From positions 868,001 to 932,000 of the forward strand of contig NZ_CP013074.1 of NCBI RefSeq assembly GCF_001889305.1: 64,000 nt of DNA. Direction: 5' to 3'. The notes under the pieces were generated by a model, which saw nothing but the letters and a program-made list of their open reading frames with translations, was not told the origin of the DNA and searched no databases. Each line of letters starts with the position of its first letter. Within the stretch, counting starts at the first letter, position 1. Position numbers and translations under genes: made by a program. Source of the DNA: Dehalococcoides mccartyi (GTDB lineage: Bacteria; Chloroflexota; Dehalococcoidia; Dehalococcoidales; Dehalococcoidaceae). Positions 10,181-63,985 of the stretch are shown piece after piece.

Positions 10181-11692
10181 ATGGCGAAAACAATAATGAT
10201 TCAGGGTACTTCCTCAAACGTAGGCAAGAGTATACTCGTAACTGCTCTTTGCCGGATATTCAAACAGGACGGCTACAAAGTAGCCCCATTCAAATCCCAG
10301 AACATGGCACTGAATGCCTTCGTTACCAAAGAGGGCGGCGAAATCGGACGGGCACAGGCTGTTCAGGCAGAAGCCTGCGGAATTGATCCCAGCGTAGATA
10401 TGAACCCTATTCTTATGAAGCCTGAAGCAGATTCCCGAAGCCAGATTGTGGTTAACGGCAAAGTAGATCGTACCATTTCCGCCCGTGAGTATTATGAATA
10501 TGCACCGCTCCTGCTAAATACCGCACTGGCGGCACTTAACCGCCTGCGTGAGAAAAATGACATCGTAGTTATAGAGGGTGCCGGCAGCCCTGCCGAAATA
10601 AACCTTAAACAGCGGGAAATTGTGAATATGAGGATTGCCAAGGCGGCAGGTGCACCCGTACTCCTAGCTGGAGATATAGACCGGGGCGGGGTTTTTGCTT
10701 CTCTTATCGGTACAATAGACCTTTTAGAGCCTGATGAACGTTATTATATCAAAGGTTATCTGATAAACAAGTTCCGGGGGGATGCCAGTTTACTGAAGCC
10801 GGCTATAGATGTAATAGAAGAACGCACTTCCATACCGGTGTTGGGCATTATTCCCTACCTGCGGAATATGGCTATTGCTCAGGAAGATTCGGTTTACCTT
10901 GACGAATGTAAAGGCAGTCTGGGCGAAACTGACCTGGATATTGCGGTAATCCGTTTGCCGCGCATATCAAATTACGATGATTTTGATGCTTTAGCTACAG
11001 ACGGGGCTTCAGTCAGGTTTGTAGCTAAGACTGCCGAAATCGGCAACCCTGATTTGATAATAATCCCAGGTACGAAATCTACCATACCTGACATGGAGTA
11101 CCTGTGGCAGAATGGTCTCGCTGAAACTATTATTAAAAAGGCCCGAAAGGGAACTCACGTATTAGGTGTTTGCGGCGGTTATCAGATTTTAGGGAAAATG
11201 ATATATGACCCCCATAAGACCGAGTCCGAAAATACAGAAATGAAAGGACTAGGTTTGTTAGATACCGAAACAACCTTTGAAAAAGAAAAATCCACCACTC
11301 AGGTAAACGGTCAGGTCAGGTTTAATAACGGGTTGCTTTCAGATATGGCAGGTTATGAAGTGGGAGGTTATGAAATCCACATGGGGCGCACCCGGTTATT
11401 TTCTGCCCAAGCTGCATTCCACATCACAAATACTCCAAAAGGTTCGGCAGATTATCTGGATGGGGCATCCAATGCGGAGGGTACAGTACTGGGTACTTAC
11501 ATACATGGCATATTTGAAAGTGCAGCTTTTCGCCGCGGTTTCTTAAACGCAATCCGCCGCTACAAGGGTATTCCTGAACGCCAGACTGACTATTTTGACC
11601 GTGACAAAGAGTACGATAAGCTGGCGGAAATAGTTAGAGCAAGTATAGATATGGAAAAGATTTATGACATTTTGAACGAGGGTATAAAATGA
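10181..11692 (+). CDS. cobQ: Cobyric acid synthase
   Basis: CobQ (CbiP) amidates adenosylcobyrinic acid a,c-diamide at four positions using glutamine and ATP. The 503-residue protein has an N-terminal P-loop domain (MIQGTSSNVGKSILVTALC), a central dethiobiotin-synthetase-like region, and a C-terminal glutamine amidotransferase domain with nucleophile GVCGGYQILG near residue 330 and a late YIHGIF His. Corrinoid salvage and remodelling matter greatly to organohalide-respiring Dehalococcoides. The start lies directly after an extended -10 box with no ribosome binding site. Its stop overlaps the next ATG (ATGA). Confidence 0.95.
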   Translation: MAKTIMIQGTSSNVGKSILVTALCRIFKQDGYKVAPFKSQNMALNAFVTKEGGEIGRAQAVQAEACGIDPSVDMNPILMKPEADSRSQIVVNGKVDRTISAREYYEYAPLLLNTALAALNRLREKNDIVVIEGAGSPAEINLKQREIVNMRIAKAAGAPVLLAGDIDRGGVFASLIGTIDLLEPDERYYIKGYLINKFRGDASLLKPAIDVIEERTSIPVLGIIPYLRNMAIAQEDSVYLDECKGSLGETDLDIAVIRLPRISNYDDFDALATDGASVRFVAKTAEIGNPDLIIIPGTKSTIPDMEYLWQNGLAETIIKKARKGTHVLGVCGGYQILGKMIYDPHKTESENTEMKGLGLLDTETTFEKEKSTTQVNGQVRFNNGLLSDMAGYEVGGYEIHMGRTRLFSAQAAFHITNTPKGSADYLDGASNAEGTVLGTYIHGIFESAAFRRGFLNAIRRYKGIPERQTDYFDRDKEYDKLAEIVRASIDMEKIYDILNEGIK

Positions 11693-12099
11693 CTCATGCT
11701 GAAGCTGAAGATAATATAAAACTGCTTTTGGAAAAAAGCAAGACCGAACCTGCACTTAATTTTCTGGGCATAAAAATACTGGAACTGAAACCTGGTTATT
11801 CCAAACTTAGTATCAAACTTAAACCCGAATTTATAAATGCTTACGGAATAATTTTCGGCGGAATTACCATGTCTTTAGCAGATGAAGCATTCGGCTATGC
11901 TGTAAACAGTCTGAAACTCCCTACAGTGGCAGCCCAGTTCAATATCCACTTTTTGCTTGCCCCAGACAACTACGATGAACTTATAGCGGAAGCCAAAGTA
12001 ATCAAATCCGGCCGTCGCCTTGCCGTTGCTGAAGTAGAAGTGACCAGCACCAAAGGTAAACTGATAGCCAAAGTCAGTGCCAGCGGTGTTCCGCTGTAA
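11689..12099 (+). CDS. PaaI-type hotdog thioesterase
   Basis: This 136-residue protein has the hotdog-fold pattern of PaaI/YdiI acyl-CoA thioesterases: INAYGIIFGGITMSLADEAFGYAVNS in the centre, where the family has HGG..LAD, then VAAQFNIHFLLA and ASGVPL at the end. The usual His of HGG appears as F in IIFGGI, so catalysis may rest on the Asp/Glu of LADEA. It overlaps cobQ by four bases. It may act on aryl- or acyl-CoA esters, and it sits tail to tail with the acyl-CoA ligase and transporter unit, but no direct link is shown. Confidence 0.75.
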   Translation: MTHAEAEDNIKLLLEKSKTEPALNFLGIKILELKPGYSKLSIKLKPEFINAYGIIFGGITMSLADEAFGYAVNSLKLPTVAAQFNIHFLLAPDNYDELIAEAKVIKSGRRLAVAEVEVTSTKGKLIAKVSASGVPL

Positions 12100-12105
12100 T
12101 TTTAG

Positions 12106-12936
12106 CTAAGCTGGGGCAGGGGTCTCATCATCACCCAGATAAGCAGCTATCACATGGCTATCGTTCTTGATTTCTTCAGGCTTACCCTCGGCAATTTTAC
12201 GCCCGAAATCCAGTACCGCAATACGGTCAGCCAAGTCCATAACCACACCCATATCATGCTCAATAAGCACAATACACTTTACCCCGTCACGCAGTATGGG
12301 TGTATCAGGATAAGTCTCGCCCTGACCTTCAAATATATCTACAATAAAACGGGCAATATCTTCTTTTTCTTCAAGGTTCATGCCCGCCATAGGTTCATCC
12401 AGTAAAAGCACTTGGGGTTCCAAAGCCAATGCCCTGCCCAGTTCCACTCGTTTTCTCATACCGTACGGCAGCATACTGACTACTTTTTTACGTACAGGCT
12501 CTATTTCCAGAAAATCTATAATATCTTCAACTATCTTGCGGTGTTTTATTTCTTCCTTATGAGCCGGCCCGAAATACGCCCCGCCAGTCAGAAAATTCTG
12601 TTTCATAAATATATGCCGGGCAGCCATCAGATTTTCAAGGGTGGTTAAACCTGAATAAAGTTCAATATTTTGAAAAGTACGGGCAATACCCATTTTAGCC
12701 ACCCGGTCAGGGCGGATACGGGCAATATTCTGCCCGTTATAAATAATACTGCCGGACTGTGGCTTGTAAAATCCGTTAATACAGTTTAAGAGACTGGTCT
12801 TGCCGGCTCCATTCGGACCGATTATAGCTGTAATCTGGTTATCGTAAATATCAAGACTAACTTCTTTGAGTGCCTTGATACCGCCGAATGAAAGGGAGAG
12901 GTTATCTACTTTTATCTTGGTATCAGGCTGATTCAT
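12106..12936 (-). CDS. livG: Liv-type ABC transporter ATPase (LivG-like)
   Basis: This is one of two ATPases of a branched-chain/aromatic acid type ABC importer. The 276-residue protein has Walker A GPNGAGKTS near residue 40, a signature region LPYGMRKRVELGRAL, Walker B VLLLDEP and a switch His (IEHDM). The LivG-specific insertion between Walker A and signature (RTFQNIELYSGLTTLENLMAARH) is present. It is the last gene of the operon that begins at 22025, separated from its partner LivF by a ligase gene and a small Cys-rich gene. Its first 14 bases overlap the upstream small gene. Confidence 0.92.
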   Translation of the reverse strand: MNQPDTKIKVDNLSLSFGGIKALKEVSLDIYDNQITAIIGPNGAGKTSLLNCINGFYKPQSGSIIYNGQNIARIRPDRVAKMGIARTFQNIELYSGLTTLENLMAARHIFMKQNFLTGGAYFGPAHKEEIKHRKIVEDIIDFLEIEPVRKKVVSMLPYGMRKRVELGRALALEPQVLLLDEPMAGMNLEEKEDIARFIVDIFEGQGETYPDTPILRDGVKCIVLIEHDMGVVMDLADRIAVLDFGRKIAEGKPEEIKNDSHVIAAYLGDDETPAPA

Positions 12937-13189
12937 TGTGCTGCCTCTCCTCGTTCATAATCTTATCCCGATAGTTGATAACCCTGTGGCACAAAGGCCC
13001 TTCGCATTTTAAGCTGTGCCCGCATTTCTTGGCCTTTTTAACCATCTCTTTCTGGGTATCACGGGAGGGCGAGCCGTACGTGTCAAAAGCGGTACAACGT
13101 ACAAAACCATCGTTTTTTACTATTATGGTTACCTCGTCACACACTGCTTCGCAGAGTATGGTACAGGCGGTAATCTGCCAATCAACCAT
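12923..13189 (-). CDS. Small Cys-rich protein of unknown function
   Basis: I do not recognise this 88-residue protein. It has seven cysteines: three close to the N-terminus (positions 9, 13 and 17), one in the middle near 32, and three in KKCGHSLKCEGPLCH near residues 56-67, together with His residues that could form a metal site. The ATG at 13189 is preceded by AGGGGA at good spacing. It begins nine bases after the ligase stop and overlaps the LivG-like gene, so it is a real operon member. A role as an accessory protein for the ligase or transporter is only a guess. Confidence 0.75.
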   Translation of the reverse strand: MVDWQITACTILCEAVCDEVTIIVKNDGFVRCTAFDTYGSPSRDTQKEMVKKAKKCGHSLKCEGPLCHRVINYRDKIMNEERQHNESA

Positions 13190-13198
13190 ATATTTCCC

Positions 13199-14488
13199 CT
13201 AATCCCACTTGCGTTCATCCAGCATAAGTTTGGTTTCCTCTGCCAGAGCACTCGCGGGTACAAATTCTATGCGGTCAGCCTTTAAGAGACACCTGTCTTG
13301 AAACTTCTTATTCAGTTCTTCAGACAGTTTTTTAGCATCAAATTCCTTTTCATTATGGACACAAATAAAAGTCATCTCATCACGGTTGGCAGGACGGTTT
13401 ATTCGTATCTGGTAACGGACTATCTCGGGGAAAAGCTTGAAAACATCTTCGGCTTGTTTGCCGACTACAAACATCCCACGTACTTTGACAGCATCGCCTA
13501 CCCGCCCTATTATGCCACTGAGTTTATAGGCAGTACGCCCGCAGCTGCACTTCTCTTTTTTAAGGCAGGATAAATCACCTGTCCCAAAACGCATAAGTCC
13601 CCATGTTTTATTATTTACCGGGGTAACTACTATTTCACCGACTTCCCCTTCGGGCAGCTGTTTGCCGGTCTTTGGGTCTACTATCTCCACTGCATATTCG
13701 TCAGACATAAGGTGCAGGCCATTTTTCTCTTCGCACTCGTAAGCCAGACAGCCGCCTGTTTCAGTCACGCCGTATGCCTGAAAAGTTTCTATGCCATAAT
13801 CTTTTTCAAGTGTCTTGCGAATAGATAATGTCAGCATTTCGCCGGTAAACCATGCGCGTTTCAGGTTTAAATCTTTTTTAATATCCAAACCCATCTCTTC
13901 TGCCTTACTCAGAAGGCTCAGAAGATAGCTTGGTGTACCCACAAAAGCGGTTACTTTCAGCTCCTGAATTGTTTTAATCTGCATTTCGGTATGGCCGGTA
14001 CCGGAAGCAATAGGTGTAGCCCCGCAGTCACGCAGACCTTCGTGAAAAAGTATGCCGGCTGGGGAAAGGTGATATGTAAAGGTATTTATAACTACATCAG
14101 CCTTACGGAAACCAGCCGCCCAAAAAGAACGCCCAAACCAGCGAATAGTACTGGTGTGCAGGGGTTCATAAACCGGACCGGGCGAAATAAATATTCGTTC
14201 TATATTATCTTCGGGTATCATCAAAAAACCGCCCCAAGGCAAGTCTTGTTTTTGCATTTCAATAAGGTCTGCTTTACGAATGATAGGTAGCCTCTCCAGA
14301 TCTTCCATTTTGCGTATCAGTTCCGGTTTCAGTCCGGCTTTTTGGAAAATGGTTCGGGTTGCCGCCGAATGTTCGTAAGCATAAGCAGCGGTTTCCTTAA
14401 GCCTGTTATTTAGAAATTCAACCCTCTCATCAAGCCCCATAGCTTCCAGCTTGTCAAAGTGGTTGTTTTTGCCGTTCTCTAAAGCCAT
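13199..14488 (-). CDS. paaK: Phenylacetate-CoA ligase-like AMP-forming enzyme
   Basis: The 429-residue protein belongs to the PaaK branch of adenylate-forming enzymes, which convert aryl acids to CoA thioesters with ATP. Family marks are AYGVTETGG near residue 240, RFGTGDL, the short CSCG loop and KVRGMFV near 340, with the small C-terminal lid after it. The usual Ser/Thr-Gly P-loop is replaced by FISPGPVYEPLHTS near residue 100. The start overlaps the livF stop by ten bases, with AGAGGCG before it. Its place inside an ABC importer operon, with iorAB divergent, suggests activation of imported aryl acids. Confidence 0.85.
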   Translation of the reverse strand: MALENGKNNHFDKLEAMGLDERVEFLNNRLKETAAYAYEHSAATRTIFQKAGLKPELIRKMEDLERLPIIRKADLIEMQKQDLPWGGFLMIPEDNIERIFISPGPVYEPLHTSTIRWFGRSFWAAGFRKADVVINTFTYHLSPAGILFHEGLRDCGATPIASGTGHTEMQIKTIQELKVTAFVGTPSYLLSLLSKAEEMGLDIKKDLNLKRAWFTGEMLTLSIRKTLEKDYGIETFQAYGVTETGGCLAYECEEKNGLHLMSDEYAVEIVDPKTGKQLPEGEVGEIVVTPVNNKTWGLMRFGTGDLSCLKKEKCSCGRTAYKLSGIIGRVGDAVKVRGMFVVGKQAEDVFKLFPEIVRYQIRINRPANRDEMTFICVHNEKEFDAKKLSEELNKKFQDRCLLKADRIEFVPASALAEETKLMLDERKWD

Positions 14489-15270
14489 CTTTTACGCCTC
14501 TTGTAATGTTTGACCTCACGATAGCTTTTCTTAGAGCCCACCGTGGAAAGCCCCATATAAAATTCTTTAACATCTTCATTATTGGTTAGAAATGAAGTGT
14601 CTCCATCAAGTACTATCCGTCCGTTCTCCAGTACATAACCGTAATGAGCAATCGATAACGCTACCTTAACATTTTGTTCAACCAGCAGTACTGATGTACC
14701 CTGTTCTTCATTAAATCTTTTGATAATGCCGAATATTTCTTTGACCATCATCGGTGCCAAGCCAAGTGAAGGCTCATCCAGCATCATCAGCTTTGGGCGT
14801 GCCATCATGGCACGCCCTATTACCAGCATTTGTTGTTCCCCGCCTGAAAGATATCCGGCAGTATTGTGCTGAACATGCCTCAGGCGGGGGAAATATTCAT
14901 ATACCATAGATAAATCAGATTTGATATTCTGACGGTCTTTACGGTTAAAAGCCCCTACAATCAGGTTTTCTTCAGTGGTAAGATGCTCAAAGACATGGCG
15001 GCCTTCCAAAGCCTGAACTATGCCCAGCTTGCCGATAGCTTCCGGATTTTTCTTGTCAATGCGGTCGCCGTTCCACTCAATATTGCCGTCTGTTACCAGC
15101 CCTTCCTCAATATGCAGCAAGCCTGAAATAGCTTTGAGAGTAGTGGTTTTACCAGCGCCATTGCCACCCAGCAATGCCACTATAGACCTCTCCGGTACTT
15201 CCAGTGATACACCGTGAAGCACCTTTATAACGTTCAGGTAGGTAACCTCTATGTTATTTACTTTGAGCAT
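14479..15270 (-). CDS. livF: Liv-type ABC transporter ATPase (LivF-like)
   Basis: Second ATPase of the ABC importer. From the ATG at 15270 it is 263 aa and begins MLKVNNIEV as LivF proteins do; a TTG at 15306 would add 12 residues and overlap the upstream gene. It has Walker A GGNGAGKTT, LivF-type RHVFEHLTTEENLIVGA, signature YLSGGEQQMLVIGRAM, Walker B LMMLDEPSLGLAP and switch VEQNV. A tail of basic residues (HYKRRKRW) ends the protein. It follows the binding protein gene by 20 bases. Confidence 0.9.
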   Translation of the reverse strand: MLKVNNIEVTYLNVIKVLHGVSLEVPERSIVALLGGNGAGKTTTLKAISGLLHIEEGLVTDGNIEWNGDRIDKKNPEAIGKLGIVQALEGRHVFEHLTTEENLIVGAFNRKDRQNIKSDLSMVYEYFPRLRHVQHNTAGYLSGGEQQMLVIGRAMMARPKLMMLDEPSLGLAPMMVKEIFGIIKRFNEEQGTSVLLVEQNVKVALSIAHYGYVLENGRIVLDGDTSFLTNNEDVKEFYMGLSTVGSKKSYREVKHYKRRKRWL

Positions 15271-15290: not shown

Positions 15291-16577
15291 CTATTTGCCA
15301 AACCAATCAAAATTTTCATAAGCAATGCTGGGCGTTTCTATCCAGCCGCTTATAACCTTAAGCTGTCCATCTTCAATCCTGAAAACTCTGACAGATTTTA
15401 CCAGACGGTTATCGCCGATTGAGTATGAAACCGGGCCATGCAAACCGCCCACATCGTACCCATTCAGCCGTTTTATGCCGAATTCTTCAATAATCTGAGG
15501 GGTTAACGAATCCACACCACCGGGTGAGTTTTCAATAGCCAGCCGCAATATTTCAGCTATAATCAAACCCTCTGCCCATGAGACGATATAATCCATATTG
15601 CCGTAATTTTCAGGGTGATATTTCAGACAGTATTCTTTCATCTTTGCCATGGCGGGGACATTTTCATCCCAGCTTACAGTAGGATACACACCCAATATCC
15701 CTTCGGCCTTGTCTGCACCGACAAGCTCCACCAGTGACTGGGTAAACCCACCGTGGCCGCAGCCTATCTGGACACCGGGGTATATACCCAGCTCAATCAT
15801 TTGCTTCACAATAACAGATGTAGGCTGAGGAGTACTGGATATGTAAACTACATCCGGATTTTGGTTTTTCATATTTAAAAGGTTTGCAGTGTCATCATTG
15901 ATAGTAGTGGAATGTTCGTAAATACCCACTATTTCCACGCCCAATTCCGCAGCCATAGCTGTTGCGGCATCACGCGCACCATAACCGGTAGGATTTTGAA
16001 GTATCATCAGGGCAACTTTGGGTTTACCCTCACCCTGCCATATATTCTCCATGTAATACTGCATGAAGGCTACCCAGTCATCACCATAATCCGGCAACTG
16101 GGAATATATATGCTGAGGCGGATGAGTCAGTGAAGGTGAACTAAAAGTGGTAAACCCCGGGAAACTTACTCTATTGGCTATTTCCATAGATGCCTGCATA
16201 TCTTTTGAGGAATTTGTGGTAAAGAAAAGGCATTCTGAAGAAATAAACTCATTTATCACGGTAACTGCTATTGCAGTGTCATATTTGGTATCCCGGAATA
16301 TAGGTTCAATCTTATATCCGTTTACTCCGCCCAGTTCATCATTTATGTACTTGATTGCATCCAATTTGGCATTACCCTGAGGAGTTCCTTTTTCGGCGGC
16401 TGGTCCGGTATAACATACGCTAAGACCAACTTTCAGAGTTTTATTGGTCACCAGCGGATTATTATTGTTATTACCGGTGATATTATCCAGATTGCATCCG
16501 CTTAAGGCAATGGGTACAAGGGTCAGCACCAGAGCCATAAAGATTCTAAAGCCAATTTCAGATTTTCCTAGTCTCAT
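15291..16577 (-). CDS. ABC transporter substrate-binding lipoprotein, copy 2
   Basis: The 428-residue protein is a Peripla_BP_6 (LivK-like) binding protein. A signal peptide ends in the lipobox LSGC near residue 28, so it is probably a lipid-anchored external receptor. After a short Asn-rich linker come the conserved LKVGLSVCYTGPAAEKG and later blocks. It is a close paralogue of the gene just upstream (16666-17958): both share TGPAAEKG, KLDAIKYINDELGGVNGY and MKEYCLKYHPENYGNMDYI. A GGAGG precedes the ATG. A separate weak promoter may lie at 16595-16623. Confidence 0.92.
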   Translation of the reverse strand: MRLGKSEIGFRIFMALVLTLVPIALSGCNLDNITGNNNNNPLVTNKTLKVGLSVCYTGPAAEKGTPQGNAKLDAIKYINDELGGVNGYKIEPIFRDTKYDTAIAVTVINEFISSECLFFTTNSSKDMQASMEIANRVSFPGFTTFSSPSLTHPPQHIYSQLPDYGDDWVAFMQYYMENIWQGEGKPKVALMILQNPTGYGARDAATAMAAELGVEIVGIYEHSTTINDDTANLLNMKNQNPDVVYISSTPQPTSVIVKQMIELGIYPGVQIGCGHGGFTQSLVELVGADKAEGILGVYPTVSWDENVPAMAKMKEYCLKYHPENYGNMDYIVSWAEGLIIAEILRLAIENSPGGVDSLTPQIIEEFGIKRLNGYDVGGLHGPVSYSIGDNRLVKSVRVFRIEDGQLKVISGWIETPSIAYENFDWFGK

Positions 16578-16665: not shown

Positions 16666-17958
16666 TTAGCTGCCAAACCAGCTAAAATCCTCGTACCTGA
16701 TAAGCGGTGCTTCTACCCAATCACTCAAGACCTGCATTACACCACCGGATATTTGGAACACTCTGACCGCTTTGGCCAGACGGTTATCGCCGCTGATATA
16801 TGAAACCGGCCCTTGCAAACTACCCACAGTATAACCATTGAGCTTCTTTATTCCGTATTCCTCAATAGCTTGCGGAGTCAGATTATCTATACCCCCAGGG
16901 GTATTTATCAACGCAAGGCGAAGTATCTCCGCGACAATCAAACCCTCTGACCATGAAGCAATATAATCCATATTGCCGTAGTTTTCAGGGTGATATTTCA
17001 GGCAGTATTCTTTCATTTTTGCCATTCCCGGTACATCTTCGTCCCAGTTTACGGTAGGATATACGCCATATATACCTTCGGTATTAGTCACACCAGCTAA
17101 ATCTATAAGAGCTTTGGTAAATCCGGCATGGCCGCAACCGACAGTTACTCCGGGATAGATATCCATCTGATTCATCTGCTTGATGATGACAGACGTAGGC
17201 TGGGGAGTGCTGGAGATAAAGACCACATCCGGGTTTTGACTTTTAAGGTTTATAAGATTCGCCGTGTCATCTGTGATAGTGGCAGAGTGTTCGTAAATAC
17301 CCACTATCTCTATACCCAAATCAGCCGCCAAGGCATTAGCCGCATCACGCGCACCATAACCGGTGGGATTCTGGAGTATCATGAGGGCCATTTTAGGAGT
17401 ACCCTCACCCTGCCAGATATTTTCCATGTAATATTTTGCAAATGATGCCCAGCTGTCACCGTAATCCGGAAGCTGTGCATATATATGCTTTGCCGGGTGG
17501 GTGCAGACCGGTGAACTGAATACGGTAAATCCGGGGAAATTTGCCCGGTTGGCAATTTCCATAGAAGCTTGCATTTCCTTAGAGGCACAGGTAGTGAATA
17601 ACAGACAATCTTTATCCATCATCTCCTGTACAATAGTTGCCGCTAGTGCGGAATCATACTTGGTGTCACGCCAGATGACTTCTATCTGGTATCCGTTTAC
17701 GCCGCCCAATTCCTCATTTATGTACTTGATTGCATCCAGTTTGGCATTCCCCATTACAGAGCCTTTTTCAGCTGCCGGGCCGGTATATGGTATTGAAAAA
17801 CCAACCTTCAAAGTAGGCTTTTCCGTTCCGTCAGGATTATTGGCATCAGTATCACTTGAACCGCATCCCCCCGCCGCCACTGAAAAAAGCAAAAGGAGCA
17901 TGCTAAAAAAGGACAAAGCTCCCCTCTTTATCAATTGTTTACGGTTTTGCCCTAACAT
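16666..17958 (-). CDS. ABC transporter substrate-binding lipoprotein, copy 1
   Basis: The 430-residue LivK-like binding protein has a signal peptide with lipobox AAGGC near residue 32, a Ser/Asp-rich linker, and the Peripla_BP_6 fold blocks LKVGFSIPYTGPAAEKG, FSSPVCTHP and LMILQNPTGYGARDAA. It is strongly similar along its full length to the next gene downstream, so the pair arose by tandem duplication. Small differences around the ligand pocket (SIPYTGP here, SVCYTGP there) may give different specificity. AGGAGG precedes the ATG at 17958. Confidence 0.92.
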   Translation of the reverse strand: MLGQNRKQLIKRGALSFFSMLLLLFSVAAGGCGSSDTDANNPDGTEKPTLKVGFSIPYTGPAAEKGSVMGNAKLDAIKYINEELGGVNGYQIEVIWRDTKYDSALAATIVQEMMDKDCLLFTTCASKEMQASMEIANRANFPGFTVFSSPVCTHPAKHIYAQLPDYGDSWASFAKYYMENIWQGEGTPKMALMILQNPTGYGARDAANALAADLGIEIVGIYEHSATITDDTANLINLKSQNPDVVFISSTPQPTSVIIKQMNQMDIYPGVTVGCGHAGFTKALIDLAGVTNTEGIYGVYPTVNWDEDVPGMAKMKEYCLKYHPENYGNMDYIASWSEGLIVAEILRLALINTPGGIDNLTPQAIEEYGIKKLNGYTVGSLQGPVSYISGDNRLAKAVRVFQISGGVMQVLSDWVEAPLIRYEDFSWFGS

Positions 17959-18000: not shown

Positions 18001-19053
18001 CTAATACGAGAAAGGCCAATACCGGTAAGAGGACTTGAACAGTTGCCAGCGGTGGGCGAGGCCTCTTGGTTCAAGCACTAAAAACAAGACAATTGCCAGG
18101 CCGAATACCATCGGCCCAAGCCCGGCTGCAAAGCCTGACGGCAACTGCGGGAAAGCAGAGCCCATAAGAGGGGATACATACTGGACACCCTGCTGCAGCA
18201 GACGGATAAAGAGCGCCCCGAATATAGGGCCAACCCCTGTACCCAAACCGCCTATAATCACAATACCAACGTATAAAATTGAATCAGACAAGGTGAAATT
18301 TTCAGCCGTCAAATAACCTATCCAGTGAGCCATAAGCGAACCGGCCACACCGGCCAGAAAACAGCCGATGAAAAAAGCCAGCAGCTTATACTTGAAGACG
18401 TTTATACCCATGACCTCAGCCGCCAAATCATTATCCCGTATGGCCACAAATGCCCGCCCTATGCGGGTGCGGGCTATATTTTTCATGAAGAAAATAGCCA
18501 AAACAGCCACCAGCATAATAATGAAGTACTGGCTGCCCTGAGTGGTAAAGTCAAAATTAAAAAGATTAATCGGGGGTATCACAATCCCGTTAAAACCGCC
18601 GGTAAGGCTGGACCAGTGGTTTATCACCCAGATTATGATAAACTGGGCGGCAATAGTGGAAATAGCCAGATAAAACCCCTTTACCCGAAGGGAGGGCAAC
18701 CCGAACAGCACACCCACCAGACCGGCCATAATGCCGGACGCTATCATGTCAAAGGGGAAAGGCACTCCCAGTTTGCTGGCCAAAATAGCGGTAGTATATG
18801 CACCCACAGCAATAAAGCCGGCATGGCCTACCGAAAGCTGGCCGCAGTAACCCATAAGTATGTTTAAACCGGCCGCAGCCACAACCGTAATACCTATAAG
18901 GTTCATAATACCCAGCCAGTAACTGCTGATATTGAACGGCAGGCTGAATAAAAGAATCAGAAAACCAATCAGCATAGCCCAATGGGTTTTGGTACGGAAG
19001 ATAGCCATATCCGTCTTGTAGCTGAAATTACGCGTTCCGCAAGGTAGATCCAT
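18001..19053 (-). CDS. livM: Liv-type ABC transporter permease (LivM-like)
   Basis: Second permease of the importer. The 350-residue protein has about nine hydrophobic helices and the LivM hallmarks LNILMGYCGQLSVGHAGFIAVGAYTTAIL near residue 60 and RTRIGRAFVAIRDNDLAAEVMGINVFKYKLLAF near residue 205, the coupling loop that meets the ATPase. It starts two bases after the livH stop, with AGAGGAT upstream. The charged N-terminal 15 residues before the first helix are a little longer than usual. Confidence 0.92.
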   Translation of the reverse strand: MDLPCGTRNFSYKTDMAIFRTKTHWAMLIGFLILLFSLPFNISSYWLGIMNLIGITVVAAAGLNILMGYCGQLSVGHAGFIAVGAYTTAILASKLGVPFPFDMIASGIMAGLVGVLFGLPSLRVKGFYLAISTIAAQFIIIWVINHWSSLTGGFNGIVIPPINLFNFDFTTQGSQYFIIMLVAVLAIFFMKNIARTRIGRAFVAIRDNDLAAEVMGINVFKYKLLAFFIGCFLAGVAGSLMAHWIGYLTAENFTLSDSILYVGIVIIGGLGTGVGPIFGALFIRLLQQGVQYVSPLMGSAFPQLPSGFAAGLGPMVFGLAIVLFLVLEPRGLAHRWQLFKSSYRYWPFSY

Positions 19054-19055
19054 AG

Positions 19056-19940
19056 CTATATCCTCTCGATGCGTTCCTGCCCAAACAGGCCGTAAGGCTT
19101 GATGAACATTACGATGATAATAATGATAAAGGGTATTACCTCTTTAACGCCCGGCCAGGTGAGGGAGGTAAGGTACCCGCCTCCCAGATTTTCCGCCAGA
19201 CCGATAATAGGCCCGGCTATCATAGCCCCTAAAAACGAATCCAGCCCGCCCAGTATCACCACTGAAAAGGCTTTGATACCGGTTTCCACCAAGCCCAGAG
19301 TGATACCGCCTATGCTGGACATCAATACCCCGCCCACAGCCGCCAGGACTATGGCCAGCATCCAGGACAGTGAAAATATACGGGTTACGGGTATACCGCA
19401 AGCCTGAACAGCCTGCTGGTCATCAGCGGTAGCCCGCATGGCCACCCCCATTTTGTGATATTTAAAAAAGAGGGTCAGCATGGCAAACAGAAGCAAAGAT
19501 ATGCCGGCCGCCCAAACATATTCCTGTGAAATAACCGCCGAACCTATGTGGATAGGTGTTTCAGGGAAAATCTTGGGCAGGGCGGCCACACTTTGCGGCC
19601 AGATAAAGCTGACCACACCCTCAAGGAAAAACCCCACCCCCAGCGTCACCGTAACCAGCGAAAGGATAGGCTGGCCGATAAGCGGCCTCAGGATAATCCT
19701 TTCCATCAGCCAGCCCAGAGCCAGAGCAAATAAAACCACGCAGATAAACCCCAGCCAGAAGGGCATGCCAACCTGTGCCAGCATACTGTAGGTAAACCAC
19801 GAACAGATGAGCACCATCTGCCCCAAAGCTAGATTAGCCACCGAAGAAGATTTCCAGATGAGGGTAAAACCAAGTGCAATAAGAGAGTACACCAGACCAA
19901 CCGTAATACCGGTTATTACATATTGCAATAAATCTGCCAT
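19056..19940 (-). CDS. livH: Liv-type ABC transporter permease (LivH-like)
   Basis: First permease of the importer, 294 aa and strongly hydrophobic. Typical LivH features are GLVYSLIALGFTLIWKSSSVANLALGQMVLI near residue 14 and the coupling loop TKYHKMGVAMRATADDQQAVQACGI (read here as FKYHKMGVAMRATADD) near residue 175. The C-terminal helices include GGLDSFLGAMIAGPIIGLAE. It lies nine bases after the acyl-CoA synthetase stop. Confidence 0.92.
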   Translation of the reverse strand: MADLLQYVITGITVGLVYSLIALGFTLIWKSSSVANLALGQMVLICSWFTYSMLAQVGMPFWLGFICVVLFALALGWLMERIILRPLIGQPILSLVTVTLGVGFFLEGVVSFIWPQSVAALPKIFPETPIHIGSAVISQEYVWAAGISLLLFAMLTLFFKYHKMGVAMRATADDQQAVQACGIPVTRIFSLSWMLAIVLAAVGGVLMSSIGGITLGLVETGIKAFSVVILGGLDSFLGAMIAGPIIGLAENLGGGYLTSLTWPGVKEVIPFIIIIIVMFIKPYGLFGQERIERI

Positions 19941-19949
19941 AATCTCCGC

Positions 19950-21842
19950 CTACAAAGACCTTACTTTTATACTGGTAGTCACCACGCCCTTGCGCCCGTC
20001 CCGATAGGTTACCGCCGCTTCCACCTTTACTTCCTTATCCAGATGGTACATGGCATCTATCAGGTCTTTATACCGTTCAGATACAAAACCCCGCCGAAGT
20101 TTACGGGTACGGGTAAGTTCAGCTTCGTCAGGGTCAAACTCTTTATGCAGCAAAACAAACTTTTTTACCCGTGAGCCTTCCGGCAGATAGCTGTTTACCC
20201 TTATAAGGTCTTTGGCAACTAAATCCGCAACCTCTTTTTTCTGGGAAAGGTCTACAAAAGTAGTGAAATTCAAGCGGTTTTTCTGTGCCCATTTGCTTAC
20301 CATAGTAAAATCAATATTTATAATGGCGGTTACATATTCCTTGTCTTCACCGCCAACCACCATGGCATCTTTTATATACGGGCTGAAACGGAGGCGCCCT
20401 TCAATATACTGAGGGGCATACTTTATCCCGCTTGCCAGCACGCCCAAATCTTTCAGGCGGTCAAGGAATATCAGGTGACCCTTTTCGTTTATATTTACGG
20501 CATCACCGGTAGCAAACCAGCCATTTTTAAAGCTCTGGGCAGTCTTTTCAGGGTCTTTGTAATAACCGCTGAACATACAGTCACTGCGGATAAGAAGCTC
20601 ACCTTCATTAGTCAGGCGCACTTCCGTGCCTAGTGCCGGCCGCCCCACACTTTCAAAGCTGATATCCCCCTTGCCGTGAGAGGAAATAAACCCGGCTTCA
20701 GTTGAAGCATAATTCTGCCTTAGCTCAATACCCAGGGAATGTATCATCTTGAATGTATCCAGCGAAAGCACAGAACTCCCGGTAACCCCAAACCTGACTT
20801 TGCTGACCCCGAGTTTGTCTTTGAGAGGGTGAAACAATAGCCCGTCAGCTATCTTATGGCTTATCTTCAAGGGGAGACCGGGCTTGCTCCCGGCCAGAGT
20901 TTTTTCGGCCATTTTATACCCCAAAGGTGAAAGTGCCTTATAGGCCAAACGCTTCAAGGGATGAGCATCTATTATTTTTACCTGTATCTCACTTACCAGG
21001 CTTTCCCATTGGCGCGGGCCGTAGATAACAAAATTAGGCCCTATTTCACGAGTATCTTCAGCAACCGTTTCCGGCTCTTCAGAAAAGTTCAGGCGTGCGC
21101 CGGAAAGAATATGGGGTATGGTAGCGAAAAAACTGTCACCTACCCACGAGGCAGGGAAATTTGAAATAAGGTCGTCTTTATAGTTCAGCGGGTAACGAGC
21201 AACAAAACCCTTGGCGGTAGTGATAAGGGAACGGTGGCTGAGCATAGCTCCCTTCTGAAGTCCGGTAGTACCGGAGGTGTAGTAAATGAAGGCAATATCA
21301 TCAGGCTTGGTATCACTTAGCAGTTGTTCAAATAATCCGGGATGGCTTCTTTCGTATTCCTGCCCCAGCTTCATCACATCTTTAAAACTTACAAGCATGG
21401 GGTCATCGTAGTTTTTAAGCCCTTTGGGGTCCCAGTAAATAATCTTTGACAGGTTTGGCAGTTCGGGCAGCAGTTCCAAAAATTTGTCAGCCTGTTCCTG
21501 GTCATTTACTACTGCTATTCTCACTTCGGCATGACGGGCAATATACTTAACCTCGTCAGGGATAGAGTCCACATATATACCGGTGGGGATTGCACCTATG
21601 GCCTGGGCGGCAAATTCCGCCCAGAACCATTCGGGTTCGTTATCACCGATAATAGCCACCCGGTCAGCGGGTTTAGTCCCCAAACTGAGCAGCCCCAAAC
21701 CGAAATACTTAACCGTACCGTAGTAATCACTCCAGGTATATTTCTGCCATATACCCAGATTTTTCATACACATGGCAGGCTTATCGCCCCATTGTTCGGC
21801 ATTATGTTTTACCAGTTTGGGTATTGTGTCTACTTCAGCCAT
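19950..21842 (-). CDS. Long-chain-type acyl-CoA synthetase (AMP-forming)
   Basis: The 630-residue adenylate-forming enzyme resembles long-chain acyl-CoA synthetases (FadD15 type). The P-loop is YYTSGTTGLQKGAMLSHRSL near residue 190, the second motif NYASTEAG near 380, and the ATP ribose site ATGDAVNINEKGHLIFLDRLKD near 465. GAGGG lies six bases before the ATG at 21842. It is the first structural gene after a leader peptide and terminator, so its expression is probably set by attenuation. The true acid could be a fatty, branched or aryl acid; the context favours an aromatic one, but this is inference. Confidence 0.85.
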   Translation of the reverse strand: MAEVDTIPKLVKHNAEQWGDKPAMCMKNLGIWQKYTWSDYYGTVKYFGLGLLSLGTKPADRVAIIGDNEPEWFWAEFAAQAIGAIPTGIYVDSIPDEVKYIARHAEVRIAVVNDQEQADKFLELLPELPNLSKIIYWDPKGLKNYDDPMLVSFKDVMKLGQEYERSHPGLFEQLLSDTKPDDIAFIYYTSGTTGLQKGAMLSHRSLITTAKGFVARYPLNYKDDLISNFPASWVGDSFFATIPHILSGARLNFSEEPETVAEDTREIGPNFVIYGPRQWESLVSEIQVKIIDAHPLKRLAYKALSPLGYKMAEKTLAGSKPGLPLKISHKIADGLLFHPLKDKLGVSKVRFGVTGSSVLSLDTFKMIHSLGIELRQNYASTEAGFISSHGKGDISFESVGRPALGTEVRLTNEGELLIRSDCMFSGYYKDPEKTAQSFKNGWFATGDAVNINEKGHLIFLDRLKDLGVLASGIKYAPQYIEGRLRFSPYIKDAMVVGGEDKEYVTAIINIDFTMVSKWAQKNRLNFTTFVDLSQKKEVADLVAKDLIRVNSYLPEGSRVKKFVLLHKEFDPDEAELTRTRKLRRGFVSERYKDLIDAMYHLDKEVKVEAAVTYRDGRKGVVTTSIKVRSL

Positions 21843-21868: not shown

Positions 21869-21900
21869 AAAAAACTTCACCTCCCGTTTGGGGGAGGTGA
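21869..21900 (-). terminator. Leader terminator (attenuator) before the acyl-CoA synthetase operon
   Basis: On the minus strand a perfect 9-bp stem (21877-21885 with 21892-21900, loop of six bases) is followed by two bases and then six T (21874-21869). It lies in the 5' leader, 27 bases before the structural gene, so it can only act as a conditional terminator. A competing pairing that would melt it is given under the leader peptide entry. Confidence 0.75.
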
Positions 21901-21941
21901 GTCTGTAAAACACTGTTACTTATAAATCGGTTTACCTATTT

Positions 21942-22025
21942 TTACTCATCAGCTGCCCCCGAAAGCGCACACAGGGTGCGCCCGGTAAACATGAAGTAAA
22001 AATAAGTGTAGCCTGCGTATTTCAT
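21942..22025 (-). CDS. Tyr/Phe-rich leader peptide of an attenuator
   Basis: This 27-codon frame starts at an ATG whose A is seven bases after the -10 box, exactly where transcription should start, so it would be translated from a leaderless end. Tyr occupies positions 3, 6, 8 and 10 and Phe 9, 11 and 13, with a YTYFYFMF core. Downstream, 21984-21990 can pair with 21930-21936 (7 bp). Bases 21956-21960 and 21944-21948 can pair with 21890-21894 and 21898-21902 on the terminator's 5' arm, forming an antiterminator. A ribosome stalled at codons 8-13 would leave the antiterminator free; one at the stop codon would cover it. This matches the logic of the pheA and trp leaders. Confidence 0.72.
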   Translation of the reverse strand: MKYAGYTYFYFMFTGRTLCALSGAADE

Positions 22026-22031
22026 TGGCGT

Positions 22032-22060
22032 AGTGTAACACAGGCATAAATATGTGTCAA
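22032..22060 (-). promoter_or_regulatory. Sigma-70 promoter of the acyl-CoA synthetase/ABC transporter operon
   Basis: TTGACA (22055-22060) and TACACT (22032-22037) are separated by exactly 17 bases, and a TG precedes the -10 in extended position. Predicted start of transcription is base 22025, the A of the leader peptide ATG. It is back to back with the iorA promoter, 57 bases away. Confidence 0.75.
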
Positions 22061-22117: not shown

Positions 22118-22146
22118 TTGACAAGCCGAAAGCTATTCATTATTCT
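22118..22146 (+). promoter_or_regulatory. Sigma-70 promoter of iorAB
   Basis: TTGACA (22118-22123) and TATTCT (22141-22146) are spaced by 17 bases. The start of transcription should be near 22153, giving a leader of about 24 bases with GGGAG (22163-22167) before the TTG start codon of iorA. Confidence 0.7.
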
Positions 22147-22176: not shown

Positions 22177-23973
22177 TTGAAAAAGCTATTATCCGGCAAT
22201 GAAGCTTTAGCCTTAGGTGCGTATCACGCAGGTCTTAAACTGGCCGCTGCCTATCCAGGCACTCCCAGTACCGAAATAATGGAAAATCTGGCCAAACTGC
22301 CCGATATACATACCCAATGGTCATCCAATGAAGCTGTAGCCGTAGAAGTAGCCACCGGTGCATGCTATACGGGTGTGCGGGCTTTGGCCGCCATGAAACA
22401 TGTGGGGTTAAATGTAGCCGCTGATGCATTTATGGCTGTTGCAACTACCGGAGTAAAAGGCGGCCTTGTTATAGTAGTGGCAGATGACCCCGGTATACAC
22501 TCCTCCCAGAACGAACAGGATACCCGGCACTATGCCCGTCTTTCAAAAATGCCGGTACTAGAGCCGTCAAACAGTCAGGAAGCCTACGATTTCATGGCTT
22601 TGGCATTTGAATTGAGCGAAAGTTTTGACACACCAGTAATTCTGCGCAGCACCACCCGTGTTTCCCATTCCAGCTCTCTGGTGGAAACTTCTGCTGAAAA
22701 ACAGCCTGCAGCCCAGGCTGCGTTTAAACATGATACTGCCAAACTGGTTATGGTACCCACCGCTGCCCGGGTACGCTGGCCAAAGGTACTTAAAAGAGAA
22801 GACCTGATAGGCGAATATGCGGAAAACTGCTTTTTTAATAAATACATACCTGGAAATGCCAAACTGGGTATCATAAGCAGCGGCATTGCCTTTCAATATG
22901 CTAAAGAGGTTTTCCCGGAAGCTTCATTCTTAAAGCTGGGCATGACCTACCCTTTACCTAAAAACCTTATCAAAGAATTCAGCCAGAGTGTTGAAACCAT
23001 ACTTGTAGTAGAAGAGCTGGATTCAGTTCTTGAAGATTCGCTCTGCCGCATGGGCATATCCGTAATAGGCAAAAAATATATACCCCGCAACGGTGAACTC
23101 AATCCTGATATTCTGCGTGAGTCTGCCATCAAAGCAGGCATACTGCCTGAGATTAAAGACACTCTGCCAAAAATAAATACCCCGGACTTTCCCAAGCGGC
23201 CGCCGCTTTTGTGTGCGGGCTGTCCGCATACTGGCATATTTTTTACCCTCAGTACTCTAGGGCAGCGTTCGGCTCTGCCCGGAAAACCCAAACGTGAACC
23301 CAAGCTGGTACTTTCGGGTGACATAGGCTGTTACACTTTGGGAGCTTACCCGCCGCTTTCGGCTATGGACACCTGCGGCTGTATGGGCGGAAGCATCAGT
23401 CAGGCAGTGGGTATGGAAAAAGCCGGTCTTACCGAACCTGTTATAGCCATTATCGGTGATTCTACCTTTATGCATTCCGGTATAAACGGCCTTATTAATG
23501 CAGTTTACAACCAGTCAAAGATAACCATACTTATACTGGATAACCGCACTACCGCCATGACAGGGCATCAGGGAAACCCCGGCTGCGGTATTGCCGCAAG
23601 CGGCCAAACTGTTACCGAGGTAAATCTGGAAGAGCTGATAAAGGGTACGGGAGTGAAAAACCTTCAGGTACTGCCTGCGTTTGACCTTAAAGCCCTGAGA
23701 GCCGGGCTGAAGAATGCAATATCCAGCGGCGAGCTGAACGTGATAATTGTACGCGGAGAGTGTAATGTCATCTGCCGGAAACGCTCCCTGCCAAACACTA
23801 TTGATACCAGCCTGTGCAACCGCTGTGATGCCTGTCTTCTTTTAGGCTGTCCGGCTATCCAACGTGACGGTGACAAACTCTTGATAGACCCAAGCCTTTG
23901 CACCGGCAACAATTGTAATCTTTGTTCTCAGGTCTGTCCTCAAAAAGCTATTAAAACCAACGAGGCGGCGTAA
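22177..23973 (+). CDS. iorA: Indolepyruvate:ferredoxin oxidoreductase, alpha subunit
   Basis: IorA binds thiamine diphosphate and interconverts aryl-pyruvates with aryl-acetyl-CoA plus CO2 and reduced ferredoxin. The 598-residue protein has the N-terminal pyrimidine-binding part (LLSGNEALALGAYHAGLKLAAAYPGTPSTE), the diphosphate site GDSTFMHSGINGLINAVYN near 430, and a C-terminal two-cluster ferredoxin domain (CNRCDACLLLGCP, CTGNNCNLCSQVCP). The start is TTG with GGGAG nine bases upstream. It pairs with iorB four bases on. In an organism fixing carbon through ferredoxin the reverse, carboxylating direction is plausible. Confidence 0.94.
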   Translation: MKKLLSGNEALALGAYHAGLKLAAAYPGTPSTEIMENLAKLPDIHTQWSSNEAVAVEVATGACYTGVRALAAMKHVGLNVAADAFMAVATTGVKGGLVIVVADDPGIHSSQNEQDTRHYARLSKMPVLEPSNSQEAYDFMALAFELSESFDTPVILRSTTRVSHSSSLVETSAEKQPAAQAAFKHDTAKLVMVPTAARVRWPKVLKREDLIGEYAENCFFNKYIPGNAKLGIISSGIAFQYAKEVFPEASFLKLGMTYPLPKNLIKEFSQSVETILVVEELDSVLEDSLCRMGISVIGKKYIPRNGELNPDILRESAIKAGILPEIKDTLPKINTPDFPKRPPLLCAGCPHTGIFFTLSTLGQRSALPGKPKREPKLVLSGDIGCYTLGAYPPLSAMDTCGCMGGSISQAVGMEKAGLTEPVIAIIGDSTFMHSGINGLINAVYNQSKITILILDNRTTAMTGHQGNPGCGIAASGQTVTEVNLEELIKGTGVKNLQVLPAFDLKALRAGLKNAISSGELNVIIVRGECNVICRKRSLPNTIDTSLCNRCDACLLLGCPAIQRDGDKLLIDPSLCTGNNCNLCSQVCPQKAIKTNEAA

Positions 23974-23977
23974 GCTT

Positions 23978-24571
23978 ATGAAAAAGTTCGATATACTGAT
24001 AGTGGGTGTGGGGGGGCAAGGAGTCATACTGGCCAGCAACGTGCTTTGTGATGCGGCTATGGCTGCCGGCTATGATGTTAAAAAGACCGATACCCTTGGC
24101 ATGGCTCAACGCGGCGGGAGTGTAGTAAGTCACCTTCGTTTTGATAAAGAAGTTTGTTCTCCCCTTATCCCCAAAGGGCAGACCGATTTGATAATCGCCT
24201 TTGAAAAACTGGAATCTGCCCGATATATGGATTATCTGGGTTCGCAGACCAAGGCTGTAATAAACGATATGGCTATGCCGCCGGCTTCGATAAGTCTCGG
24301 CCTTTCAAAATACCCTGCGGATTCCGAAATACTAAATGGTTATACAAAGCTGGGCATTGAGGCAGATTTCATAGCCGCAAATGATGCTGTTAAAGAGTTG
24401 GGTAATACCAAGATGCTGAACATTTACCTTCTGGGATATGCTGCCCGTTATCTGCCGTTTGGTTTCGACATATTGGCCGATGCCATCAAAAAACGCCTGC
24501 CGTCTAAATTACTTGAGGGGAACTTAAAGGCACTTGAAGCCGGATATGCAGCCTCAGTAAGTCAAGCTTAG
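23978..24571 (+). CDS. iorB: Indolepyruvate:ferredoxin oxidoreductase, beta subunit
   Basis: IorB is the gamma-type domain partner of IorA. The 197-residue protein starts with FDILIVGVGGQGVILASNVLCDAA and continues with the family's KTDTLGMAQRGGSVVSHLRF. It follows iorA by four bases with no own promoter. Its 3' end overlaps the stop of the convergent CBS-domain gene by four bases. Confidence 0.94.
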   Translation: MKKFDILIVGVGGQGVILASNVLCDAAMAAGYDVKKTDTLGMAQRGGSVVSHLRFDKEVCSPLIPKGQTDLIIAFEKLESARYMDYLGSQTKAVINDMAMPPASISLGLSKYPADSEILNGYTKLGIEADFIAANDAVKELGNTKMLNIYLLGYAARYLPFGFDILADAIKKRLPSKLLEGNLKALEAGYAASVSQA

Positions 24572-63841: not shown

Positions 63842-63858
63842 ACCGCACCTCCTTTTCT

Positions 63859-63894
63859 AAAAAATAAAGTCCTTATGCCAAAGCACAAGGACTT
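63859..63894 (-). terminator. Attenuator hairpin in the rplJ leader
   Basis: On the minus strand a 12-bp stem with TTTG loop (63867-63894, one G-U pair) is followed by TATTTTTT. It lies between the L10 leader motif and the rplJ ribosome binding site, so it is a regulated terminator. Confidence 0.75.
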
Positions 63895-63914
63895 ATAAAA
63901 CCCTTAATAAAAAG

Positions 63915-63985
63915 TCTTGTATCCTCGGCAGGCAATGTATTAAGCCAATAGGCACCCACGTCTCAGGAAATATTCAGTTATAAAT
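63915..63985 (-). ncRNA. Ribosomal protein L10 leader
   Basis: On the minus strand the leader has the conserved GAGACGTGGGTGCC block (about 63951-63964) and TTAATAC...GCCTGCCGAGGAT (about 63921-63943), as in L10 leaders of many bacteria. L10 binding here feeds back on rplJL expression through the attenuator hairpin downstream. The boundaries are approximate. Confidence 0.75.

Follow-up and report, generated by a model that had tools for sequence, protein, structure and literature searches.

A predicted Phe/Tyr leader-peptide attenuator before an acyl-CoA ligase and Liv-type transport operon of Dehalococcoides mccartyi and its relatives in the Dehalococcoidia

Why should a short reading frame crowded with Tyr and Phe codons, followed by a terminator, stand before an operon for transport and acid activation? 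The question is raised by a locus in the window, i.e., the whole 64,000-nt stretch of Dehalococcoides mccartyi DNA analysed here, in which an earlier reading of the letters alone (the sequence-only reading) had proposed control by attenuation. Our analysis largely supports that interpretation. The element is very probably a classical ribosome-mediated attenuator, predicted to sense the charging of tRNA-Phe and tRNA-Tyr, and the operon behind it would belong to an aromatic regulon of the Dehalococcoidia, the presumed purpose of the operon being to supply Phe and Tyr from aryl acids.

Promoter, leader frame and terminator at the window locus

On the minus strand, a −35 hexamer TTGACA (22055–22060) and a −10 hexamer TACACT (22032–22037) are separated by a 17-nt spacer, and the seventh base past the −10 hexamer, the predicted +1, is the A of an ATG at 22025. 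The frame that opens there (minus strand, 21942–22025) encodes the 27-codon leader peptide MKYAGYTYFYFMFTGRTLCALSGAADE before a stop codon, is predicted to be leaderless, and has Tyr at codons 3, 6, 8, and 10 and Phe at codons 9, 11, and 13. At least seven aromatics per 11 residues were found in only 2 of the 559 ATG frames of 15–45 codons in the window, the leader frame included. In Dehalococcoidaceae leaders (L004, L005, L007, L008, L010, L011, L013, and L014), the predicted transcription start lies 0–5 nt from the leader ATG, which makes a leaderless mRNA probable for this family; longer 5′ ends occur in most of the other families.

The RNA downstream of this start is predicted to form several paired elements, all on the minus strand. 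In the predicted fold, an outer anti-antiterminator stem (21930–21990) pairs GUUUACC (21990–21984) with GGUAAAC (21936–21930) and is lengthened where the Tyr/Phe codons pair with the bases surrounding the stop codon. The hairpin GCGCAC-CCUGU-GUGCGC (21965–21981), which the sequence-only reading had not listed, lies 5′ of the antiterminator strand, and five of its pairs are invariant in 44 aligned leaders. The antiterminator 5′ strand (21944–21964), which comprises GGGGG (21960–21956) and UGAGU (21948–21944), is supported by the stalled-ribosome fold and by a swap test across the family. Its 3′ strand (21890–21902), which overlaps the terminator 5′ arm, is supported by the swap test, covariation, and the fold. 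The intrinsic terminator (21869–21900) consists of a 9-bp stem (21900–21877) and a run of six T (21874–21869), is backed by covariation over the 44 sequences, and ends 27 bases before the ligase ATG at 21842. The RNA fold is more stable than expected (z = −3.4), with none of 200 dinucleotide shuffles equally stable. The elements that the sequence-only reading had described were thus recovered where it had placed them: the TTGACA-17-TACACT promoter with its expected start at the A of the ATG and the Tyr/Phe-rich 27-codon frame in the minus-strand sequence, and the 7-bp stem, the candidate antiterminator strands, and the 9-bp stem with its six-T terminator in the sequence and the folds.

Conservation of the leader and its alternative pairings

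Ligase homologues were searched in the class Dehalococcoidia and in GTDB contigs, and their upstream regions were read for leaders. Most of these homologues have a recognisable leader upstream, and such leaders stand before the same acyl-CoA ligase/Liv/PaaK-like operon throughout the Dehalococcoidia. In the two other species of the genus, the leader region aligns at 91 and 84% identity and the frame, hairpins, and terminator are kept, and all three members retain at least six of the seven aromatic codons (Tyr10 is replaced by Cys in one). Among 60 non-redundant leaders, most of which have a TTGACA-type promoter upstream, a start within 75 nt together with a stop ahead of the terminator is found for the Phe frame in 60 of 60 and for the other two frames in 15 and 9; the start is ATG in 57, as against 2 and 2. 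This conservation points to translation of the leader frame. When a profile was built from other families only, with the window's own family left out, it gave one significant match in the window, and this was at the leader (E = 5.3e−15).

The core of most leaders reads F-x-F-T-x-R-T, coded TTC-NNN-TTT-ACC and followed by GCGCAC..GUGCGC-UUGGGAGG, and the terminator 5′ arm and loop read CCUCCC-AAGC in most of them. Most relatives carry only two Phe codons, and TTC-NNN-TTT is invariant in the 44 aligned leaders while the middle codon varies. Within this motif, TTC is used without exception for the first Phe and TTT for the second (44 of 44 leaders; alignment A2, columns 7–9 and 13–15), synonymous codons notwithstanding, a fixed choice that suggests some constraint on the Phe codons at the RNA level. 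In a distant subgroup without the GCGCAC hairpin, runs of Phe codons are found instead, as in MHTQVRSFNFFFFFFFSMPAGEPGRTLA, which ends at a stop codon. The Phe-run leaders L016, L023, L044, L056, L058, L070, and L098 stand before the same operon, with the antiterminator and terminator kept and the 5′ half rebuilt.

The invariance of the hairpin core and of the Phe-codon wobble positions means that part of the conservation lies at the RNA level, as would be expected if another RNA switch, such as a T-box, a riboswitch, or a protein-binding leader, overlapped the aromatic frame by chance. Against this stand the absence of any match at the leader to the T-box model or to a riboswitch in Rfam, the Phe-run subgroup, which lacks the GCGCAC hairpin and yet keeps in-frame Phe codons and the antiterminator/terminator pair, and the agreement of the codon sets of different targets with their pathways (described below). 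We consider such a switch improbable.

The alternative pairings were evaluated over the same family. The antiterminator duplex was more stable with its own terminator (−19.07 kcal/mol) than with partners permuted among species (−17.02 kcal/mol, sd 0.27; 0 of 20,000 permutations), in a test made without correction for relatedness. In the 44 leaders, the hairpin and terminator together had 37 double-change cells compared with 9.9 in shuffles (0 of 500), and no shuffle of 500 reached the covariation score observed for the antiterminator, in which both sides change at only two pairs of the alignment. Joint changes of antiterminator and terminator include UUGGG/CCCAA to UUAGA/UCUAA in L021 and L026, GCCG/CGGC in L027 and L077–L079, and GCUG/CAGC in L048.

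A further explanation is a constitutive terminator or transcript boundary lying beside a chance aromatic frame, with no regulation at all. It would agree with promoter and terminator scans of the leader region alone, which gave results near shuffle expectation, but it does not account for the conservation of the frame, codons, alternative pairings, and position across the order, or for the homologous elements before aro and pheS genes, and we regard it as barely credible.

To model the effect of a translating ribosome, the RNA was truncated directly ahead of the terminator 3′ arm and folded with the nucleotides under the ribosome masked. For the window leader, the antiterminator probability was 0.76–0.87 with the A-site at codons 4–18 and 0.69 at codon 19; it was 0 at codons 1–2, at codons 23 to the stop, and without a ribosome. 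The Tyr/Phe codons from 6 to 13 all fall inside the permitting range, and codon 3 falls outside it. Across the family, 59 of 60 leaders had an antiterminator probability above 0.5 when the ribosome was placed at the first Phe of F-x-F, compared with 2 of 60 when it was placed at the stop codon. The same position-dependent on/off pattern appeared in 10 of 400 shuffled controls (about 2.5%). When the terminator arm was left free to pair anywhere upstream, the contrast between stalled and stop positions was seen in only 27 of 60 leaders; we took the antiterminator-specific count (59 of 60 versus 2 of 60) as the relevant one over this looser count. In 27 of 60 leaders, the RNA without translation likewise prefers the antiterminator as long as the terminator is still incomplete. 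In full-length equilibrium folds, the terminator is the stabler form in most leaders, and this holds with a stalled ribosome too; antitermination must therefore be kinetic and decided during transcription. On its own, the full-length equilibrium fold does not demonstrate antitermination.

The locus thus has the layout of an attenuator: a translated-type frame with regulatory codons lies between the promoter and the first gene, a terminator follows the leader, the antiterminator and terminator are mutually exclusive according to the swap test, covariation, and fold, and, in silico, the stem that covers the regulatory codons keeps the antiterminator from forming except when a ribosome is stalled on them. 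These analyses bear out the main expectations of the sequence-only reading. In mask folding, a stall at codons 8–13 would free the antiterminator and a ribosome at the stop codon would prevent it, as had been proposed; covariation and swap tests in relatives uphold the alternative pairings; and the loss of the frame or of the aromatic codons in close relatives, which would speak against attenuation, was seen in none of the three members of the genus, the Phe codons of the frame being conserved far beyond it in the 60 leaders.

We propose that transcription would start at or near 22025 and that translation of the leader would follow immediately. When Tyr- or Phe-tRNA is in short supply, the ribosome would stall at codons 6–13 and open the stem between the coding strand and the stop-codon stretch; the freed GGGGG..UGAGU strand would capture the terminator 5′ arm, and RNA polymerase would read into the ligase/Liv/PaaK-like operon. 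If both charged tRNAs are plentiful, the ribosome would reach the stop codon and cover the antiterminator strand, allowing the terminator to form. Without translation, a long rod would form, and the terminator would form as well.

The controlled operon and the aromatic regulon

The first gene of the controlled operon encodes an AMP-forming acyl-CoA ligase (19950–21842) and is followed, likewise on the minus strand, by genes for a LivH-type permease (19056–19940), a LivM-type permease (18001–19053), two LivK-type binding proteins (16666–17958, PF13458; and 15291–16577, similar to the first in sequence), a LivF-type ATPase (14479–15264), a PaaK-like (phenylacetate-CoA ligase-like) AMP-binding enzyme (13199–14488), and, from its translation, a LivG-type ATPase (12106–12936). 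The best equivalog matches of the PaaK-like protein are PaaK models, with scores below the NCBIfam thresholds (195 bits versus a cut-off of 646 for TIGR02155, and 243 versus 700). A PaaI-like hotdog thioesterase gene (plus strand, 11689–12099; TIGR02286, 88 bits, cut-off 118.9) is syntenic in relatives. Divergently from the leader, iorA (plus strand, 22177–23973; TIGR03336, 692 bits versus a cut-off of 651) and iorB (plus strand, 23978–24571; NF005322, 290 bits versus 237) encode the alpha subunit of indolepyruvate ferredoxin oxidoreductase and the beta subunit of indolepyruvate oxidoreductase, and both pass their NCBIfam equivalog cut-offs. The iorA gene has its own promoter-like site (22118–22146). 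A search upstream of iorA at 25 loci, including relatives whose ligase gene has no leader, revealed no attenuator, so iorAB is seemingly not attenuated. Two other features were seen in the window: a small frame beginning MVDWQITACTILCEAVCDEVTIIVKNDGFVRC between the PaaK-like and LivG genes (minus strand, 12936–13199) and a ribosomal protein L10 leader (minus strand, 63854–63985; RF00557, 81 bits).

When a covariance model built from the ligase-operon leaders was run on whole genomes, a second match was obtained in the same genome (477706–477823, minus strand; L147/L169). It contains the leader MLNVKSFKNYYYFTKASLLGR, closed by a stop codon and with the same terminator layout, and heads nine adjacent genes running from DAHP synthase to prephenate dehydrogenase, named from their sequences as aroF-B-D-E-K-A-C-pheA-tyrA, of which the prephenate dehydratase was confirmed by Pfam. 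This leader is also present in the other two species of the genus. The model matched in 108 of 156 Dehalococcoidales genomes, a count that includes sequences used for the model, and nowhere outside the class Dehalococcoidia in a 251-genome sample of the phylum. A further 59 places were read. At 41 of them the leader stands before DAHP synthase, MLVNTSPRKYYYYFAFTWRWKCAWGALS being an example of its frames; among the remainder, some lie ahead of HisC-like aminotransferase genes and some, in two genera, ahead of pheS, where the frames are MKVSLRFKTNFMFTER and MKMIYNTYFRFNFNFMFTGR (all three frames end in a stop codon). Control of pheS is limited, since among the 30 best pheS loci the model matched at a single one. 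The terminator register differs among the aro-type leaders. These paralogous leaders are rich in Tyr, Phe, or Trp codons, and the codons follow the pathway, being Phe at pheS and Tyr combined with Phe or Trp at DAHP synthase; at the ligase operon, they are Phe in most relatives and mixed in the genus Dehalococcoides. Aromatic leaders of the same family were also seen before genes named from their sequences as opine-dehydrogenase-like (L247 and L251), MBL-fold-like (L237 and L242), aldolase-like (L198 and L202), CaiB-like (L160), molybdopterin oxidoreductase-like (L149), and TRAP-type binding protein (L156) genes. None of these has an evident part in supplying aromatic amino acids, and they may have new functions in the metabolism of Phe and Tyr.

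The occurrence of the same type of switch before genes of the aromatic pathway ties the uptake cluster to aromatic amino acid synthesis. The ligase/Liv operon would be one branch of the regulon and the aroF–tyrA shikimate operon another, joined in some relatives by aminotransferase genes and pheS. The claim of the sequence-only reading that the operon serves Phe/Tyr supply gained independent support from the leaders before aroF–tyrA, DAHP synthase, aminotransferases, and pheS and from the adjoining iorAB; for the ligase operon itself, the support consists of synteny and regulon membership.

The gene set can plausibly be read as aryl-acid import, CoA activation, carboxylation to arylpyruvate, and transamination. 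Aryl acids such as phenylacetate would be imported, activated to CoA esters, and passed to IorAB, which, if run in the carboxylating direction, would lead to Phe and Tyr; we infer both this direction and the imported substrate. The sub-threshold scores of the PaaK-like and PaaI-like proteins and the lack of an attenuator before iorA at the 25 loci make this step less secure. Another possibility is that the attenuator is real but the operon imports Phe, Tyr, or other amino acids directly, with the CoA ligases and IorAB belonging to a catabolic or otherwise separate pathway. Two points suit this alternative: the transporter belongs to the branched-chain amino acid (Liv) type, and decarboxylation is the direction for which IorAB is best known. 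However, two AMP-forming CoA ligases sit in the operon, and in relatives, iorA, iorB, an aminotransferase gene, and the PaaI-like gene lie just upstream in the same orientation, giving the order iorA-iorB-aminotransferase-PaaI-like-leader-ligase-LivHMKF-PaaK-like. Catabolism of Phe fits poorly with a switch activated by a shortage of Phe-tRNA; because the operon would be on in that state, supply is favoured over catabolism. We consider direct amino acid import unlikely, though far from negligible. Our own reading, in which a clade-wide Phe/Tyr regulon couples de novo aromatic synthesis with aryl-acid salvage, arylacetates being imported, activated, and carboxylated by IorAB to arylpyruvates for Phe and Tyr, has in our estimate about an even chance of being correct. 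Prephenate dehydratase is present twice in the genome, so such salvage would add to de novo synthesis. The reading would give a likely function to a widespread Liv/CoA-ligase operon of the Dehalococcoidia, a class that includes organohalide respirers, and suggests that these bacteria obtain aromatic acids from other members of the communities they rely on. Because the switch would activate the operon when Phe or Tyr is short, the direction of IorAB in the Dehalococcoidia is directly testable.

Comparison with known attenuators and the aryl-acid route

Ribosome-mediated attenuators are known as the trp, his, and pheA/pheST types in Proteobacteria and as trp leaders in Actinobacteria (PMC1262725). 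The window leader shares with the trp/his/pheA type a promoter, a short frame rich in regulatory codons, an anti-antiterminator over those codons, an antiterminator overlapping the terminator 5′ arm, and an intrinsic terminator just before the first gene. In contrast to these systems, the Dehalococcoidia leaders belong to another phylum and a separate RNA family, with a predicted leaderless start in the genus Dehalococcoides, and the window leader mixes Tyr and Phe codons and would control an importer and acid-CoA ligases, not a biosynthetic operon of the classical kind. The Rfam family Phe_leader (RF01859) likewise stands before Phe-related genes and has weak sub-threshold matches in some relatives; it gave no match at the window leader and stayed below the gathering threshold everywhere tested (best relative, L140, 33 bits versus 55). 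The leader family is an RNA family below the Rfam thresholds. A literature search, outside which one comparative survey of attenuation lay, found no description of a Phe/Tyr attenuator for the Dehalococcoidia or of such a family for the phylum, suggesting a new lineage-wide family of amino-acid attenuators.

Within Dehalococcoides, T-box leaders have been described before trpE, a trpB-like gene, and ileS (PMC2494555). Both kinds of leader control a terminator according to aminoacyl-tRNA in the same genus, but T-boxes bind the tRNA directly and have no leader peptide, whereas the codons of the window leader are predicted to be read by the ribosome. Control of Trp by T-boxes and of Phe/Tyr by leader peptides would be a division of labour.

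For the proposed metabolic role, the closest counterpart is Methanococcus maripaludis, in which aromatic amino acids are reported to be made from aryl acids through IorAB (Porat et al., as cited in PMC4162585). This route shares with the window the combination of iorAB and acid activation supplying aromatic amino acids; it is archaeal, and the counterpart in the window is deduced from gene content and regulation alone. We know of no attenuator for the M. maripaludis route. If our reading is true, the Dehalococcoidia operon would correspond, in bacteria and under genetic regulation, to the aryl-acid route of methanogens, and the leader codons would reveal the direction of IorAB.
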